From positions 2,170,001 to 2,234,000 of the forward strand of contig NZ_LR590484.1 of the NCBI RefSeq assembly GCF_901482695.1: DNA of 64,000 nucleotides. Reading direction: 5' to 3'. The number at the start of each line of letters is the position of its first letter. Position 1 is the stretch's first letter. The notes under the pieces are model-generated. The model was not told where the DNA came from. It made no database searches and saw only the letters and a program-made list of their open reading frames with translations. This document shows positions 31,229-64,000 of this stretch, piece after piece. The translations under genes were made by a program, and so were the position numbers. The DNA comes from Sphingobacterium thalpophilum. GTDB lineage: Bacteria > Bacteroidota > Bacteroidia > Sphingobacteriales > Sphingobacteriaceae.

Positions 31229-31331
31229 CGCTTATAGAGAAAGGCCGAGGGACTAGACCCAATGAAGCCTTAGCAACCTGTATTATTCAAGGTGCTAAAT
31301 TCTACCCTACTCCATGTGGGAAAGATAAGTT
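31229..31331 (+). promoter_or_regulatory. SAM-I riboswitch (S-box) upstream of metF
   Basis: All conserved S-box blocks are present in order: CTTAT (P1 5' strand, 31231), AGAGAAAGGCCGAGGGACT, GACCCAATGAAGCC, TTAGCAACC, AAGGTGCTAAATTCTACC and GGGAAAGATAAG (P1 3' strand, 31325-31329). The P1 arms CTTAT and ATAAG are complementary. The aptamer binds S-adenosylmethionine and would lower metF expression when it is plentiful. Downstream, TTACAT-GC-CGA (31330) can pair with TCGATGTAA (31365-31373), but no T-run follows, so control of translation start is more likely than termination. Confidence 0.93.
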
Positions 31332-31401: not shown

Positions 31402-32358
31402 ATGAAGATTATCGACCATATCCAGAACGCAAAAGGAAAGACACTGTTTTCTTTTGAGCTATTACCTCCGGCAAAAGGCCAAGGAATCCAGAGTATTTTT
31501 AAAACGATGGATGAGCTGATGGAATTCAAGCCACCTTTTATTGACGTCACTTATCATCGGGAGGATTATATCTACAAAGAACATGCTAGTGGCCTGCTGG
31601 AGAGAGTCTCTTATCGCAAACGTCCCGGCACAGTGGCCATATGTGCGGCCATTATGAACAAATATAAGGTGGACGCTGTTCCGCATCTGATCTGTGGTGG
31701 TTTCACAAAAGAAGAGACCGAAAATGCGCTGATCGACCTCAATTTTCTGGGTATAGATAATGTTTTGGTACTCCGGGGCGATGCGCGCAAAGGGGATGCA
31801 GACTTTATACCGACTGAAGGCGGACACGCTTTTGCCACCGATTTGTTGCAGCAGGTGGTGGATATGAATAAGGGCAAATATCTCCACGAGGATATCGTGA
31901 CCTCCGAAAAGACCGATTTCTGTATCGGTGTGGCCGGATATCCCGAGAAACATTTTGAATCTCCCAACTTTAATACCGACTTTAAGTACCTGAAACAGAA
32001 AATTGATATGGGTGCCGAGTTTATCGTTACCCAGATGTTTTTTAACGTTGATAAGTATAAAGAATTTGTGATCAAATGCCGGGATAATGGCATTCATGTA
32101 CCTATTATTCCGGGCCTCAAGCCGTTGACCACCAAAAAGCAGCTAGTTACCCTGCCCCGCATTTTCCATTTGGACATTCCCGAAGAACTGAGTGATGCGG
32201 TTGCGGCCTGTAAAACAAATGCTGATGTCAGACAGGTAGGCGAGGAATGGCTGGTGCAGCAGTGCCAGGAACTGATTAAATTTGGCGCCCCAGTGCTGCA
32301 TTTCTACACCATGAGTAATCCCGGACCGACAAAGAAAATTGTAGAAAAGCTGGCTTAA
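31402..32358 (+). CDS. metF: Methylenetetrahydrofolate reductase
   Basis: 318-residue FAD enzyme that reduces 5,10-methylene-THF to 5-methyl-THF, the methyl donor for methionine synthesis. Family motifs: FSFELLPPAKGQG at the N-terminus, DVTYH, VDAVPHLICGGFTKEE, NVLVLRGDARKGD, GVAGYPEKH, and the FAD-site stretch GAEFIVTQMFFNVDKY. Length is normal. Control by the SAM-I riboswitch directly upstream closes the logic: high SAM shuts off methyl supply. Methionine synthase is not in the window. Confidence 0.97.
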   Translation: MKIIDHIQNAKGKTLFSFELLPPAKGQGIQSIFKTMDELMEFKPPFIDVTYHREDYIYKEHASGLLERVSYRKRPGTVAICAAIMNKYKVDAVPHLICGGFTKEETENALIDLNFLGIDNVLVLRGDARKGDADFIPTEGGHAFATDLLQQVVDMNKGKYLHEDIVTSEKTDFCIGVAGYPEKHFESPNFNTDFKYLKQKIDMGAEFIVTQMFFNVDKYKEFVIKCRDNGIHVPIIPGLKPLTTKKQLVTLPRIFHLDIPEELSDAVAACKTNADVRQVGEEWLVQQCQELIKFGAPVLHFYTMSNPGPTKKIVEKLA

Positions 32359-61199: not shown

Positions 61200-62456
61200 A
61201 TGGCATCATCAAGATCATTTGCATTTACAGAAGATTGGGTAGTAGTCATTTTAGGGCTAGCTACCATTTTTTTAGCGCTTTCGGGTGTCGTCGCGCCGGT
61301 GCCCAGTTTTTCTTGGGGCGACTCTGCGGAGTTGGTTTCCACGATCGCGGATTCGGCCAATATGGCCAAATTAGGACAACAATTTATTTTTGTCTTTGCC
61401 ACAGCGGTTTTGGGAGCTTGGCTGCTCGGTAAGTCGGTCAGATCCCTCCTTGTCGTATTTCCAGTGGTCTTTGTTCTAACGGTATTGGCACTGATACTGG
61501 CAGGTAATGCGACGGTAAAAGAATACAATCTGGAGGCGGTTATTTTTAGTCTGGCCGTCGGGCTATTGATCAGCAATTGTTTCAAGTTACCCGACTGGTT
61601 TAAAGAAGCCCTGAGTACTGAATTGTATGTTAAAATCGGCCTCATCTTATTGGGTACAACCGTGATCTTCGGCGATATCCTCAAAGCAGGATCGCTCGGG
61701 CTTATTCAGGCACTTGCTGTAGTTCTTTCGGTATGGTATTTCGCTTTCTGGATATGTAAAAAACTAAAGATTGACAAAGAAATGTCGCTGATGCTGTCCA
61801 GTGCGGTTTCAATATGTGGAGTCTCGGCTGCTATTGCAACTTCCGGAGCGATAAAAGGAGATAGCAAGAAGCTGTCTTATGTGATTTCTTTAGTGCTTAT
61901 TACGGCGATTCCAATGATGATATTCATGCCCTACATGGCCGAATGGATGGGGCTTTCCCAAGAAGTCACCGGTGCATGGCTCGGCGGAAGCATTGATACC
62001 ACCGGAGCAGTCGTCGCATCTGGCTCACTCGTGGGTGAAGAGGCTTTGAAGATCAGTACGATAGTTAAATTCTCACAAAACGTATTGCTCGGCCTTGCCG
62101 CTTTTGCTATCAGTATTTATTGGACCTACGCCAAGTCGGTCGATGAGGAAACTAAGCGTGATAAGCCTACGCTGAAAATTATCTGGGAGCGTTTCCCTAA
62201 GTTTGTGCTTGGTTTCGTGTTTGCTTCCCTGCTTTTCTCTTTCGTCATTTCGCCTGAAAAGGTGGACGCCGTCAAAGGAAGCCTAAAGAATCTACAAGGA
62301 CTCTGGTTTACCTTGGCTTTTACTTCGATTGGCTTGGAAACAAACTTCAAAGACCTATTTGTCCAAGATAATAAGAAACCTCTTTATGCTTTTCTGATCG
62401 CTCAGACGTTTAATGTAGCGATTACCCTGCTGATCGCCCTATTGCTATTCCGTTAA
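61200..62456 (+). CDS. YeiH/UPF0324-family transporter (putative sulfate exporter)
   Basis: 418-residue inner-membrane protein with about 10-12 helices. Family-like stretches: KIGLILLGTTVIFGDIL, SLMLSSAVSICGVSAAIATSGAIKG, GAWLGGSIDTTGAVVASGSLVGE, TIVKFSQNVLLGLAAF. Members are annotated as putative sulfate exporters, from the link of some to taurine or sulfonate degradation; the substrate is not proven here. It is followed by a 600-base region leading to a TonB receptor gene. Whether the two belong together is unknown. Confidence 0.88.
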   Translation: MASSRSFAFTEDWVVVILGLATIFLALSGVVAPVPSFSWGDSAELVSTIADSANMAKLGQQFIFVFATAVLGAWLLGKSVRSLLVVFPVVFVLTVLALILAGNATVKEYNLEAVIFSLAVGLLISNCFKLPDWFKEALSTELYVKIGLILLGTTVIFGDILKAGSLGLIQALAVVLSVWYFAFWICKKLKIDKEMSLMLSSAVSICGVSAAIATSGAIKGDSKKLSYVISLVLITAIPMMIFMPYMAEWMGLSQEVTGAWLGGSIDTTGAVVASGSLVGEEALKISTIVKFSQNVLLGLAAFAISIYWTYAKSVDEETKRDKPTLKIIWERFPKFVLGFVFASLLFSFVISPEKVDAVKGSLKNLQGLWFTLAFTSIGLETNFKDLFVQDNKKPLYAFLIAQTFNVAITLLIALLLFR

Positions 62457-62534: not shown

Positions 62535-62699
62535 CCTACCCATTATTGACGAAGGTCAAGCGTGGCTGTCACCGTAGCGACCTTAAGCATGTGATGAGTC
62601 CTATAATTGGTTAAGTGACTGATATTAAGCGTGTATAGTGTATTTTGAAAAAAAATATTATAAAATCTATCAAATTAGTAGTCTTTTAAAAATTATTTA

Positions 62700-62707
62700 T
62701 ATATTTG
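62700..62707 (+). promoter_or_regulatory. -7 promoter box of the leader region
   Basis: TATATTTG is a perfect -7 box. A start near 62714 would place the folded leader and the 32-codon ORF on one transcript. No TTTG lies at -33; the upstream DNA is AT-rich. Confidence 0.55.
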
Positions 62708-62721
62708 TGCTGTTATCCGGA

Positions 62722-62816
62722 TGGCTTACGTCAAGAAGGTTAACGTGAAAACGAGGTGAATCCCGAGGTGCATGTCATTGAGCTACGGACGGTGGCATGT
62801 CGGTGTTCGCCAGCCA
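62722..62816 (+). ncRNA. Candidate structured leader RNA, three-way-junction fold
   Basis: Hand folding gives P1 TGGCT/AGCCA (62722-62726, 62812-62816), P2 TACGT/ACGTG (62727-62731, 62743-62747, 11-base loop), and a longer P3: CCGA/TCGG (62763-62766, 62800-62803), CATG/CATG (62771-62774, 62796-62799) and CATTG/CGGTG (62776-62780, 62790-62794) around a 9-base loop. It resembles no riboswitch class I know. Several pairs are G-U and the stems are short, so the fold is a hypothesis. It contains a 12-codon frame (MAYVKKVNVKTR, 62721-62759). Confidence 0.35.
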
Positions 62817-62838
62817 ATAAATAATTAATTAGAAAAGA

Positions 62839-62937
62839 ATGAAACAAGATTACTTCTCAAAAAAACGATCACGGTTAGTTTCCGAAAATCAGTTGAAGAT
62901 CAGCTTTACAGTTGGGGCTGAGCGAATGTGTAGCTAG
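62839..62937 (+). CDS. Small ORF, 32 codons, ending Met-Cys-Ser (candidate leader peptide)
   Basis: An ATG at 62839, preceded by AGAAAAGA, opens a frame of 32 codons ending in TAG. The peptide starts MKQDYFSKKRSR and ends TVGAERMCS; it is basic in the first half. It lies between a -7 box and an intrinsic terminator that ends 56 bases after its stop, which is the layout of a leader peptide with attenuation or of a free-standing small gene. I do not recognise it from sequence; the codon choice looks natural and the frame has a purposeful composition. Cysteine near the C-terminus and the neighbouring putative sulfate exporter make sulfur-linked control thinkable, nothing more. Confidence 0.5.
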   Translation: MKQDYFSKKRSRLVSENQLKISFTVGAERMCS

Positions 62938-62942
62938 AATTT

Positions 62943-62962
62943 CTCTCTTATACTCTCTTATA
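62943..62962 (+). repeat. Tandem 10-base repeat
   Basis: CTCTCTTATA occurs twice in direct tandem, right between the small ORF stop (62935-62937) and the terminator (62967). Pyrimidine-rich, single-stranded in the predicted RNA; may be a protein-binding or pausing site, or simply a slippage duplication. Confidence 0.6.
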
Positions 62963-62966
62963 TTGG

Positions 62967-62993
62967 AAAAGGGAAGCCGAAGCTTCCCTTTTT
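62967..62993 (+). terminator. Intrinsic terminator upstream of the TonB receptor
   Basis: AAAAGGGAAGC, loop CGAA, GCTTCCCTTTTT: perfect 11-bp stem with stable GNRA-like tetraloop and T-run. It sits in front of, not behind, the receptor gene, so expression of the receptor needs read-through or a further promoter between 62993 and 63068, where none is obvious. Confidence 0.9.
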
Positions 62994-63005
62994 AAAGTTT
63001 TAACA

Positions 63006-63071
63006 ATGAAACAAGTATCGATTGGCGTTGGCACTTGTTTAAGTTCACTATTAAACTGTATAAATTTATGA
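63006..63071 (+). CDS. Mini-ORF, 21 codons, overlapping the receptor start
   Basis: ATG at 63006 opens MKQVSIGVGTCLSSLLNC and ends in a TGA that overlaps the receptor ATG (ATGA at 63068-63071). This arrangement fits translational coupling. Its first ten bases, ATGAAACAAG, are identical to those of the 32-codon ORF upstream. The frame may be chance; the exact overlap and the repeated start are the arguments for it. Confidence 0.35.
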   Translation: MKQVSIGVGTCLSSLLNCINL

Positions 63072-64000
63072 AAAAAAATGCTATTTTTCGAATTAGCGTC
63101 ATTTTAGGCCTCGTGCTGACGGGTATATCACAGAGTTATGGCCAAGTAGAAAATCCAAAACCTATTATAAATGCTTCATTGACAGGTACGGTAATCGATG
63201 CGGTCACGAAAGAACCCCTGCAGGGAGTCACTGTTCAGCTGGAAGCCGTGACACATCAGGTGAAAACCGATAGCAAAGGTGTTTTCCAGTTTGTCACAGG
63301 ACAAAAATTGCCTTTTACCCTGATTGTTTCTATCGTTGGATACCAGACCCGTCGGATTGTGGTTGAACAGTCGCCTGCGGTGATTGAGCTTACTCCCCGG
63401 CTGGAGGCACTGGATCAGGTGGTGGTCACGGCGCGCAGAAGAAAAGAGCAATTACAGGATGTGCCAATTCCCGTGTCGATTATCCGCGGAACAGCATTGG
63501 AAGATGCGGGAGCATTTAACGTCAACAGATTAAAAGAGCTTGTTCCCACCGTACAGCTTTACTCCTCGAATGCACGTAATACGACACTCAATATTCGGGG
63601 GCTGGGCTCAACCTATGGCCTCACCAATGATGGTATCGACCCCGGTGTGGGATTTTATTTGGACGGCGTTTATATTGCACGCCCGGCAGCTACCTGGCTG
63701 GATTTTATTGATATCGACTAGATAGAAGTGCTGCGGGGCCCACAGGGAACCCTCTTTGGAAAGAACACCACAGCTGGAGCTTTTAACATTACCTCGCGTC
63801 TGCCGCAGTTCACGCCCGAAGCGAATGTTGAAGTGAGTTACGGGAATCAGGGATTTATTCAGGCGAAGACATCGATTTCAGGACCGCTGGCCAAAAATTT
63901 AGCTGCCCGGGCCTCTTTTTCAGGAACGCAGCGGGATGGTAACCTCTTCAATGTGCATACCAACCGCAAGATTAATGATATCAATAATTTGGGATTTAGG
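63068..64000 (+). pseudogene. TonB-dependent receptor interrupted by an amber codon (continues past the window)
   Basis: Start ATG at 63068 (MKKNAIFRIS), signal peptide ending SYGQ, carboxypeptidase-regulatory-like domain (ASLTGTVIDAVTKEPLQGVTV), then the plug (VVVTARRRKEQLQDVPIPVSII; LNIRGLG; GVGFYLDGVYIARP). At codon 218 (63719-63721) the frame reads GAC TAG ATA GAA, giving DID-stop-IEVLRGPQGTLFGKN. In relatives this position is Gln or Arg (D-R/Q-IEVLRGPQG), so a CAG-to-TAG change explains it. The same frame then stays open to the window end with a normal barrel start. The receptor is truncated unless the stop is suppressed or is a sequencing error. Cargo is unknown. Confidence 0.88.

Follow-up and report, generated by a model that had tools for sequence, protein, structure and literature searches.

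Genes and features upstream of the receptor gene

The 64,000 nucleotides analysed here (the window) are part of a 5.96-Mb one-contig genome of Sphingobacterium thalpophilum and end within the gene of a TonB-dependent receptor. The region in front of this gene contains a promoter motif, a short ORF, an intrinsic terminator and several smaller elements (Table 1). The -7 box, the 32-codon ORF, the tandem repeat, the terminator and the 21-codon mini-ORF had been listed by an initial annotation, made from the letters alone, and a check of the sequence found each of them in its place; the palindrome, the second hairpin and a stop codon within the receptor gene are additions of this study. Directly upstream of the element, in the window as well as in relatives, lies a gene for a YeiH-family putative sulfate exporter (61200-62456); apart from this exporter, the neighbours of the receptor in the S. 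thalpophilum genome include no sulfur enzymes.

Table 1. Features of the element and of the receptor gene that follows it (window positions)
Feature	Position	Strand	Basis
15-bp palindrome CTATCAAATTAGTAG, candidate sulfur-regulator operator	62667-62681	+	comparison
-7 box TATATTTG (TAnnTTTG)	62700-62707	+	sequence; conserved in congeners
5' leader, foldable, not conserved	62714-62838	+	folding, comparison
Leader peptide ORF, 32 codons, end Arg(CGA)-Met-Cys-Ser	62839-62937	+	sequence MKQDYFSKKRSRLVSENQLKISFTVGAERMCS and comparison with relatives
Candidate regulatory Cys codon UGU (residue 31), on which the downstream geometry is anchored	62929-62931	+	comparison
Pyrimidine tract, two near-copies, candidate antiterminator strand (segment 2)	62940-62959	+	comparison
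Tandem 10-base repeat TCTCTTATAC/TCTCTTATAT	62944-62963	+	sequence
Intrinsic terminator hairpin and U-run (segments 3 and 4)	62966-62993	+	folding, covariation
21-codon mini-ORF overlapping the receptor ATG	63006-63071	+	not conserved as a frame
Second hairpin ACAAGU-UCGAU-UGGC-GUUGG-ACUUGU, conserved, 5' of the receptor	63011-63038	+	comparison, folding
TonB-dependent receptor gene, extends beyond the window end	63068-64000	+	95% identical to an intact 865-aa orthologue

The receptor gene of the window has a lone in-frame TAG (63719-63721) in the plug domain (..DFIDID*IEVLRGPQG..), at the position of a Gln in the 95%-identical orthologue. Close orthologues do not have this TAG; single stops are reported for some more distant ones, which were not checked singly. 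The TAG may be a sequencing error. It may also be that the window copy of the element is decaying: it has only one Cys codon, its 5' leader is unrelated and its receptor is interrupted.

A leader ORF with a Cys codon at its end

A DNA search with the leader identified ten congeners, with the similarity confined to the 3' part of the leader, that is to the start of the 32-codon ORF. In these congeners the order of ORF, pyrimidine repeat, terminator and receptor is the same, as far as the contigs reach. The block of promoter, ORF and terminator is thus more than a chance arrangement, as all three recur. In the alignment of the peptides, M1, K2, Y5, K8 and the R-M-C close to the end are kept and little besides: the body of the peptide has 28-41% identity to that of the window, close relatives included. 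By sequence, the ORF has what is expected of an attenuator, a short reading frame with one or more Cys codons at its end; there is one such codon in the window and two in its clade.

The receptor served as a second starting point, with orthologues in 93 of 201 family genomes and 75 of 94 genus genomes. Upstream of the genus orthologues there are often short ORFs that end in MRMC, KRMC or similar and that mostly have exactly 32 codons. Counted across species that are related, and thus not as independent events, a short ORF ending in MC plus 0-2 residues is found in 33 of 54 deduplicated congener upstream regions (0.17 expected from dinucleotide shuffles) and an MC end at exactly 32 codons in 24 of the 54 (0.01 in dinucleotide shuffles), and in other genera 9 of 45 upstream regions have an ORF with at least three Cys among its last seven residues (0.12 in dinucleotide shuffles). 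The peptide bodies are mostly diverged among the species counted. Ends of the Cys-run type in other genera are, for example, ..YMCCCC, ..KTCCCC, ..DCCCCC and SSSPCCCCCCVSCN.

Throughout these peptides R-M-C is conserved far better than multiple Cys, and conservation extends to the nucleotides: the Arg preceding Met-Cys is encoded by CGA in all 36 leaders collected via their receptor, and CGA is the rarest Arg codon (5.8% of the Arg codons in 17 window genes). Two copies of the element have a UGA stop codon in place of the Cys codon, and some congeners lack the leader ORF. At one congener locus (L010, G005) the RMCC end of the leader was lost by a deletion, apparently between GTTGTT repeats.

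Terminator, pyrimidine tract and second hairpin

In the window and its clade, an intrinsic terminator lies between the leader ORF and the receptor gene. The hairpin of the window folds with -17.5 kcal/mol (z score of -4.35) and none of 200 shuffles was equally good. Among 24 non-redundant attenuators, which were picked for their common layout with atypical copies excluded, 98% of the cells of the structure are paired, both sides change in 6 of the 8 pairs of the terminator stem, and the observed covariation was reached by none of 500 shuffles.

The pyrimidine tract is a possible pairing partner of the terminator's 5' arm; measured from the first base of the Cys codon, it begins at 14.1 nt (sd 2.1). 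The start of the tract does not shift with the stop codon, whose distance from the Cys codon is 6, 9, 12 or 24 nt: the slope of tract start against stop codon is 0.02 ± 0.12, or -0.09 ± 0.26 without the single +24 case. Given the size of its footprint, a ribosome with the Cys codon in the A site should end about where the tract starts. The score of the antiterminator pairing has p < 0.05 in 3 of 18 sequences, with a combined p of 0.0045 (dinucleotide shuffles); in the clade of the window the pairing is not above dinucleotide shuffles (p 0.51). Support for an antiterminator step is weak.

The U-run, and with it a recognisable terminator, is missing from many paralogous hairpins. In nearly all genera with poly-Cys ORFs no intrinsic terminator was found, by a finder that overlooked hairpins with overlap of U-run and stem, the window's own included, so that these blanks are weak evidence. 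Both the paralogues without U-run and the poly-Cys genera without terminator indicate that the output may there be translational or Rho-dependent.

The second hairpin has a UGGC loop and an inner stem that varies on one side only; in the copies with an identified receptor start, its TTGGCG lies 43-47 nt upstream of the receptor ATG. The mini-OR​F of the initial annotation occupies the same region and does overlap the receptor ATG at 63068, but it is not conserved as a reading frame: its counterparts in relatives have 15, 17 or 21 codons or are fused to the receptor. The conserved feature of this region is the RNA hairpin.

Promoter and palindrome

A sigma-70 scan for a promoter was uninformative for this phylum. 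The motif of the -7 box, TAnnTTTG, is the sigma-A motif in Flavobacterium (PMC9723704). The centre of the palindrome lies about 40 bp before the inferred transcription start. The palindrome is conserved in congeners and other genera; as CTAYNAAWTTNRTAG with up to two mismatches it is present in most receptor upstream regions. A TAnnTTTG motif is found at most 30 nt away at 59 of 94 palindrome sites versus 7% at random places, with a spacing of 18-19 nt at most sites.

The relaxed palindrome occurs in 163 of 251 family genomes; within single genomes the bare relaxed palindrome hardly exceeds its control, which makes individual sites uncertain. The strict palindrome has only two sites in the S. 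thalpophilum genome and the regulon was therefore read from relatives. Elsewhere the palindrome stands before sulfur genes, with sites upstream of genes for a TauE/SafE sulfite exporter, a peroxiredoxin, a NifS/IscS-like enzyme and SerC; a TlpA-like protein and YceI are also encoded next to sites (all names from reading the sequences), and several receptors with poly-Cys ORFs are beside palindrome sites as well. The second strict site of the S. thalpophilum genome (L108 / L015) is flanked by a small gene and by a gene that was named DUF3050-like from its sequence; no leader ORF was seen at this site. Two loci (L200, L224) have an additional copy of CAATTGGCGTTGGCAACG near the transcription start, upstream of the leader ORF.

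Copies elsewhere in the genus

In the 94 genus genomes, ATGCGAATGTGY (Met-Arg-Met-Cys) has 184 matches, compared to 45 for the reversed control. Twenty match regions were read: most have a leader, the hairpins and a TonB/SusC receptor, and some are chance matches (e.g. L268, L269, L270, L274, L276). Neighbours of the copies identified by Pfam are SusD, a sulfatase, an FGE sulfatase-maturation enzyme, a rhodanese-thioredoxin, AhpC/TSA and a sulfite-oxidase-type molybdopterin oxidoreductase with cytochrome c.

A second copy that is intact (MNQSFNLIPSSSRAYPLSCLSYFSDISMRMCSCG) is located at about 4484421-4484525 in the S. thalpophilum genome, and a decayed copy is found upstream of a sulfatase at about 3852326. 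The decayed copy (L194) consists of palindrome and hairpin, without leader ORF or receptor; its relatives L198 and L202 retain the leader, and in L202 UGA takes the place of the Cys codon.

When the genome collection was scanned with a combined pattern, 55 elements were found, all but two in records named Sphingobacterium (the exceptions are one Parapedobacter and one Sphingobacteriaceae bacterium); as the pattern derives from the genus, the scan could not reveal a wider spread. A poly-Cys-stop pattern was also run across the class. Hardly any of the loci read turned out to be leader ORFs, and we therefore claim no spread beyond the family.

Proposed mechanism and alternatives

Comparison shows that the ORF end, the spacing and the terminator stem are conserved and that related copies have sulfur genes in their surroundings. 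Most likely, the element is a switch that would open the receptor gene under cysteine shortage, because the arrangement recurs in front of receptors in dozens of Sphingobacterium species, in some cases near sulfur-scavenging genes. We give a probability of about 0.62 to the reading that the segment is a cysteine- or sulfur-responsive leader-peptide attenuator of the TonB receptor gene; that the 32-codon ORF would be the leader peptide of an attenuator family dispersed in Sphingobacterium is, judged from the sequences, largely right. The initial annotation had proposed control of the receptor by translation of the leader, and this now has strong comparative support from the Cys-ended ORF, the conserved geometry, the covarying stem and the dozens of copies before receptors. 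Of the recurrence upstream of TonB receptors that it had suggested looking for, the ORF end and the terminator bear it out; the leader fold and the peptide body do not.

The scheme that we infer for translation, stalling, antitermination, signal and regulator is as follows. Transcription would start just downstream of the -7 box, probably under a regulator on the palindrome, and ribosomes would translate the 32-codon leader. Under a shortage of cysteinyl-tRNA, the ribosome would wait with the Cys codon of Met-Cys in the A site and its leading edge would end just upstream of the pyrimidine tract; the free tract could base-pair with the terminator's 5' arm and RNA polymerase would thus continue into the receptor gene. 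With ample cysteine, the ribosome would advance to the stop codon and cover the tract, the terminator would form and transcription would end.

Counted against attenuation are the antiterminator pairing, which does no better than shuffles in most species and in the clade of the window, the UGA codon in two copies, the paralogues without U-run and the congeners without ORF, and further the single Cys codon of the window, its interrupted receptor and neighbours that are mostly not sulfur enzymes. Four of these observations, the UGA copies, the missing U-runs, the terminator-less poly-Cys genera and the ORF-less congeners, indicate that the output step may differ between lineages.

Such an output could be on translation or mRNA stability rather than on termination, with the leader ribosome opening or closing the start region of the receptor. 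The U-run-less paralogous hairpins and the nearly fixed distance of the second hairpin to the receptor ATG are consistent with this, as are several poly-Cys genera that have Cys codons in predicted hairpins near the receptor start and no terminator seen; the very stable hairpin with complete U-run in the clade of the window argues for termination, and we regard an effect on translation or stability as possible, if rather unlikely.

The signal may also be other than cysteinyl-tRNA (e.g. copper, thiol stress or a small molecule) if the RMRM-C end and the CGA codon stall the ribosome alone, by nascent-chain or codon-programmed arrest. The conservation of R-M-C over multiple Cys, the invariance of the rare CGA, the leader length of mostly 32 codons and the two UGA copies, which retain the remainder of the element, all fit an arrest of this kind. 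In other genera, though, plain Cys runs without RMRM precede the orthologous receptors, and some copies adjoin sulfur-scavenging genes; we consider arrest alone unlikely. A combination is conceivable, and we put it forward tentatively: the rare CGA and the Arg-Met end might slow the ribosome near codon 31 with the Cys codon as a gate, and programmed pause and cysteine supply would together decide on the transcription of sulfur-scavenging receptors.

A free-standing small gene was an alternative of the initial annotation; its peptide would then act by itself (e.g. in metal binding). The ORF has a promoter and a terminator of its own and its C-terminal MC is conserved; the body of the peptide is not, and this makes a free-standing small protein very unlikely, the more so as the ORF is repeatedly found directly upstream of receptors, is followed by conserved RNA hairpins and has an Arg codon that is invariant at nucleotide level.

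A ligand-binding leader RNA (riboswitch) in 62714-62838 that controls the receptor, also suggested initially, is highly improbable: the 95-nt leader is foldable, but its fold is no better than chance (z score of -1.43; 20 of 200 shuffles are equally good) and absent from relatives, whose leaders are unrelated, and a search of the window and the segment against Rfam gave no sensible match for the leader even at an E-value of 10, leaving it with neither a conserved aptamer nor a known family. The sole Rfam match lies elsewhere in the window, a SAM riboswitch (RF00162, 71.6 bits) at 31229-31331, upstream of an ORF at 31402-32358.

Comparison with known systems

The literature searched, which covered few subscription journals, contained no description of the Sphingobacterium Cys-leader family and no prior description of a sensor that combines pause and codon. 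That the arrangement is no known system, as the initial annotation had it, is thus roughly right for the Bacteroidota literature searched; the principle of attenuation by a Cys-ended leader peptide is already known. If the attenuator reading is true, the Bacteroidota gain a cysteine-sensing leader peptide whose targets are nutrient receptors rather than biosynthesis, and a number of TonB/SusC receptors would be tied to sulfur scavenging. Because a simple pattern suffices to find copies, the controlled receptors and enzymes would form a sulfur regulon open to testing, and the usual length of 32 codons, the invariant CGA and the Cys-anchored spacing yield sharp predictions of the site at which the ribosome stops.

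Leader peptides with Cys runs were predicted before cys operons of Mycobacterium and relatives, without conserved terminators (Seliverstov 2005, PMC1262725), and polycysteine ORFs are, according to the passages citing this work, cysteine-responsive attenuators in mycobacteria (Canestrari 2020, cited in PMC13236596 and PMC9094748). The likeness is a short ORF upstream of the gene, with Cys codons close to the end and a proposed sensing of cysteine, and the difference is that the actinobacterial ORFs precede cys or cbs genes with no conserved terminator, whereas the Sphingobacterium element precedes TonB/SusC receptors. Also unlike the mycobacterial ORFs, it has an MRMC end, mostly 32 codons, an invariant CGA, a terminator and a second hairpin. 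Near the stop there is a single Cys in the window and there are two in its clade, with runs only before orthologues in other genera, and in place of a leaderless start the ORF of the window begins about 125 nt downstream of the inferred transcription start.

Within the Bacteroidota, control of amino-acid operons by leader-peptide attenuation was inferred in Flavobacterium psychrophilum (PMC9723704). Long 5' UTRs of Bacteroides thetaiotaomicron contain leader-like sORFs (PMC7366714); these also resemble leader peptides, and the available part of that paper gives no Cys motif or receptor family and leaves them uncharacterised. In Pseudomonas aeruginosa, sulfur limitation induces an arylsulfatase and a 1-Cys peroxiredoxin (PMC12581299), genes that resemble those following the palindrome or lying close to copies of the leader; the response differs in its regulators, and the accessible text of this source mentions no leader peptide.

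The Sphingobacterium element resembles the trp, his and ilv attenuators in having candidate regulatory codons in a leader ORF and a terminator downstream of it; an alternative pairing is possible. Unlike these, it would control a nutrient receptor rather than biosynthesis, its candidate regulatory codon is at the very end of the ORF and its candidate antiterminator strand is positioned relative to that codon.
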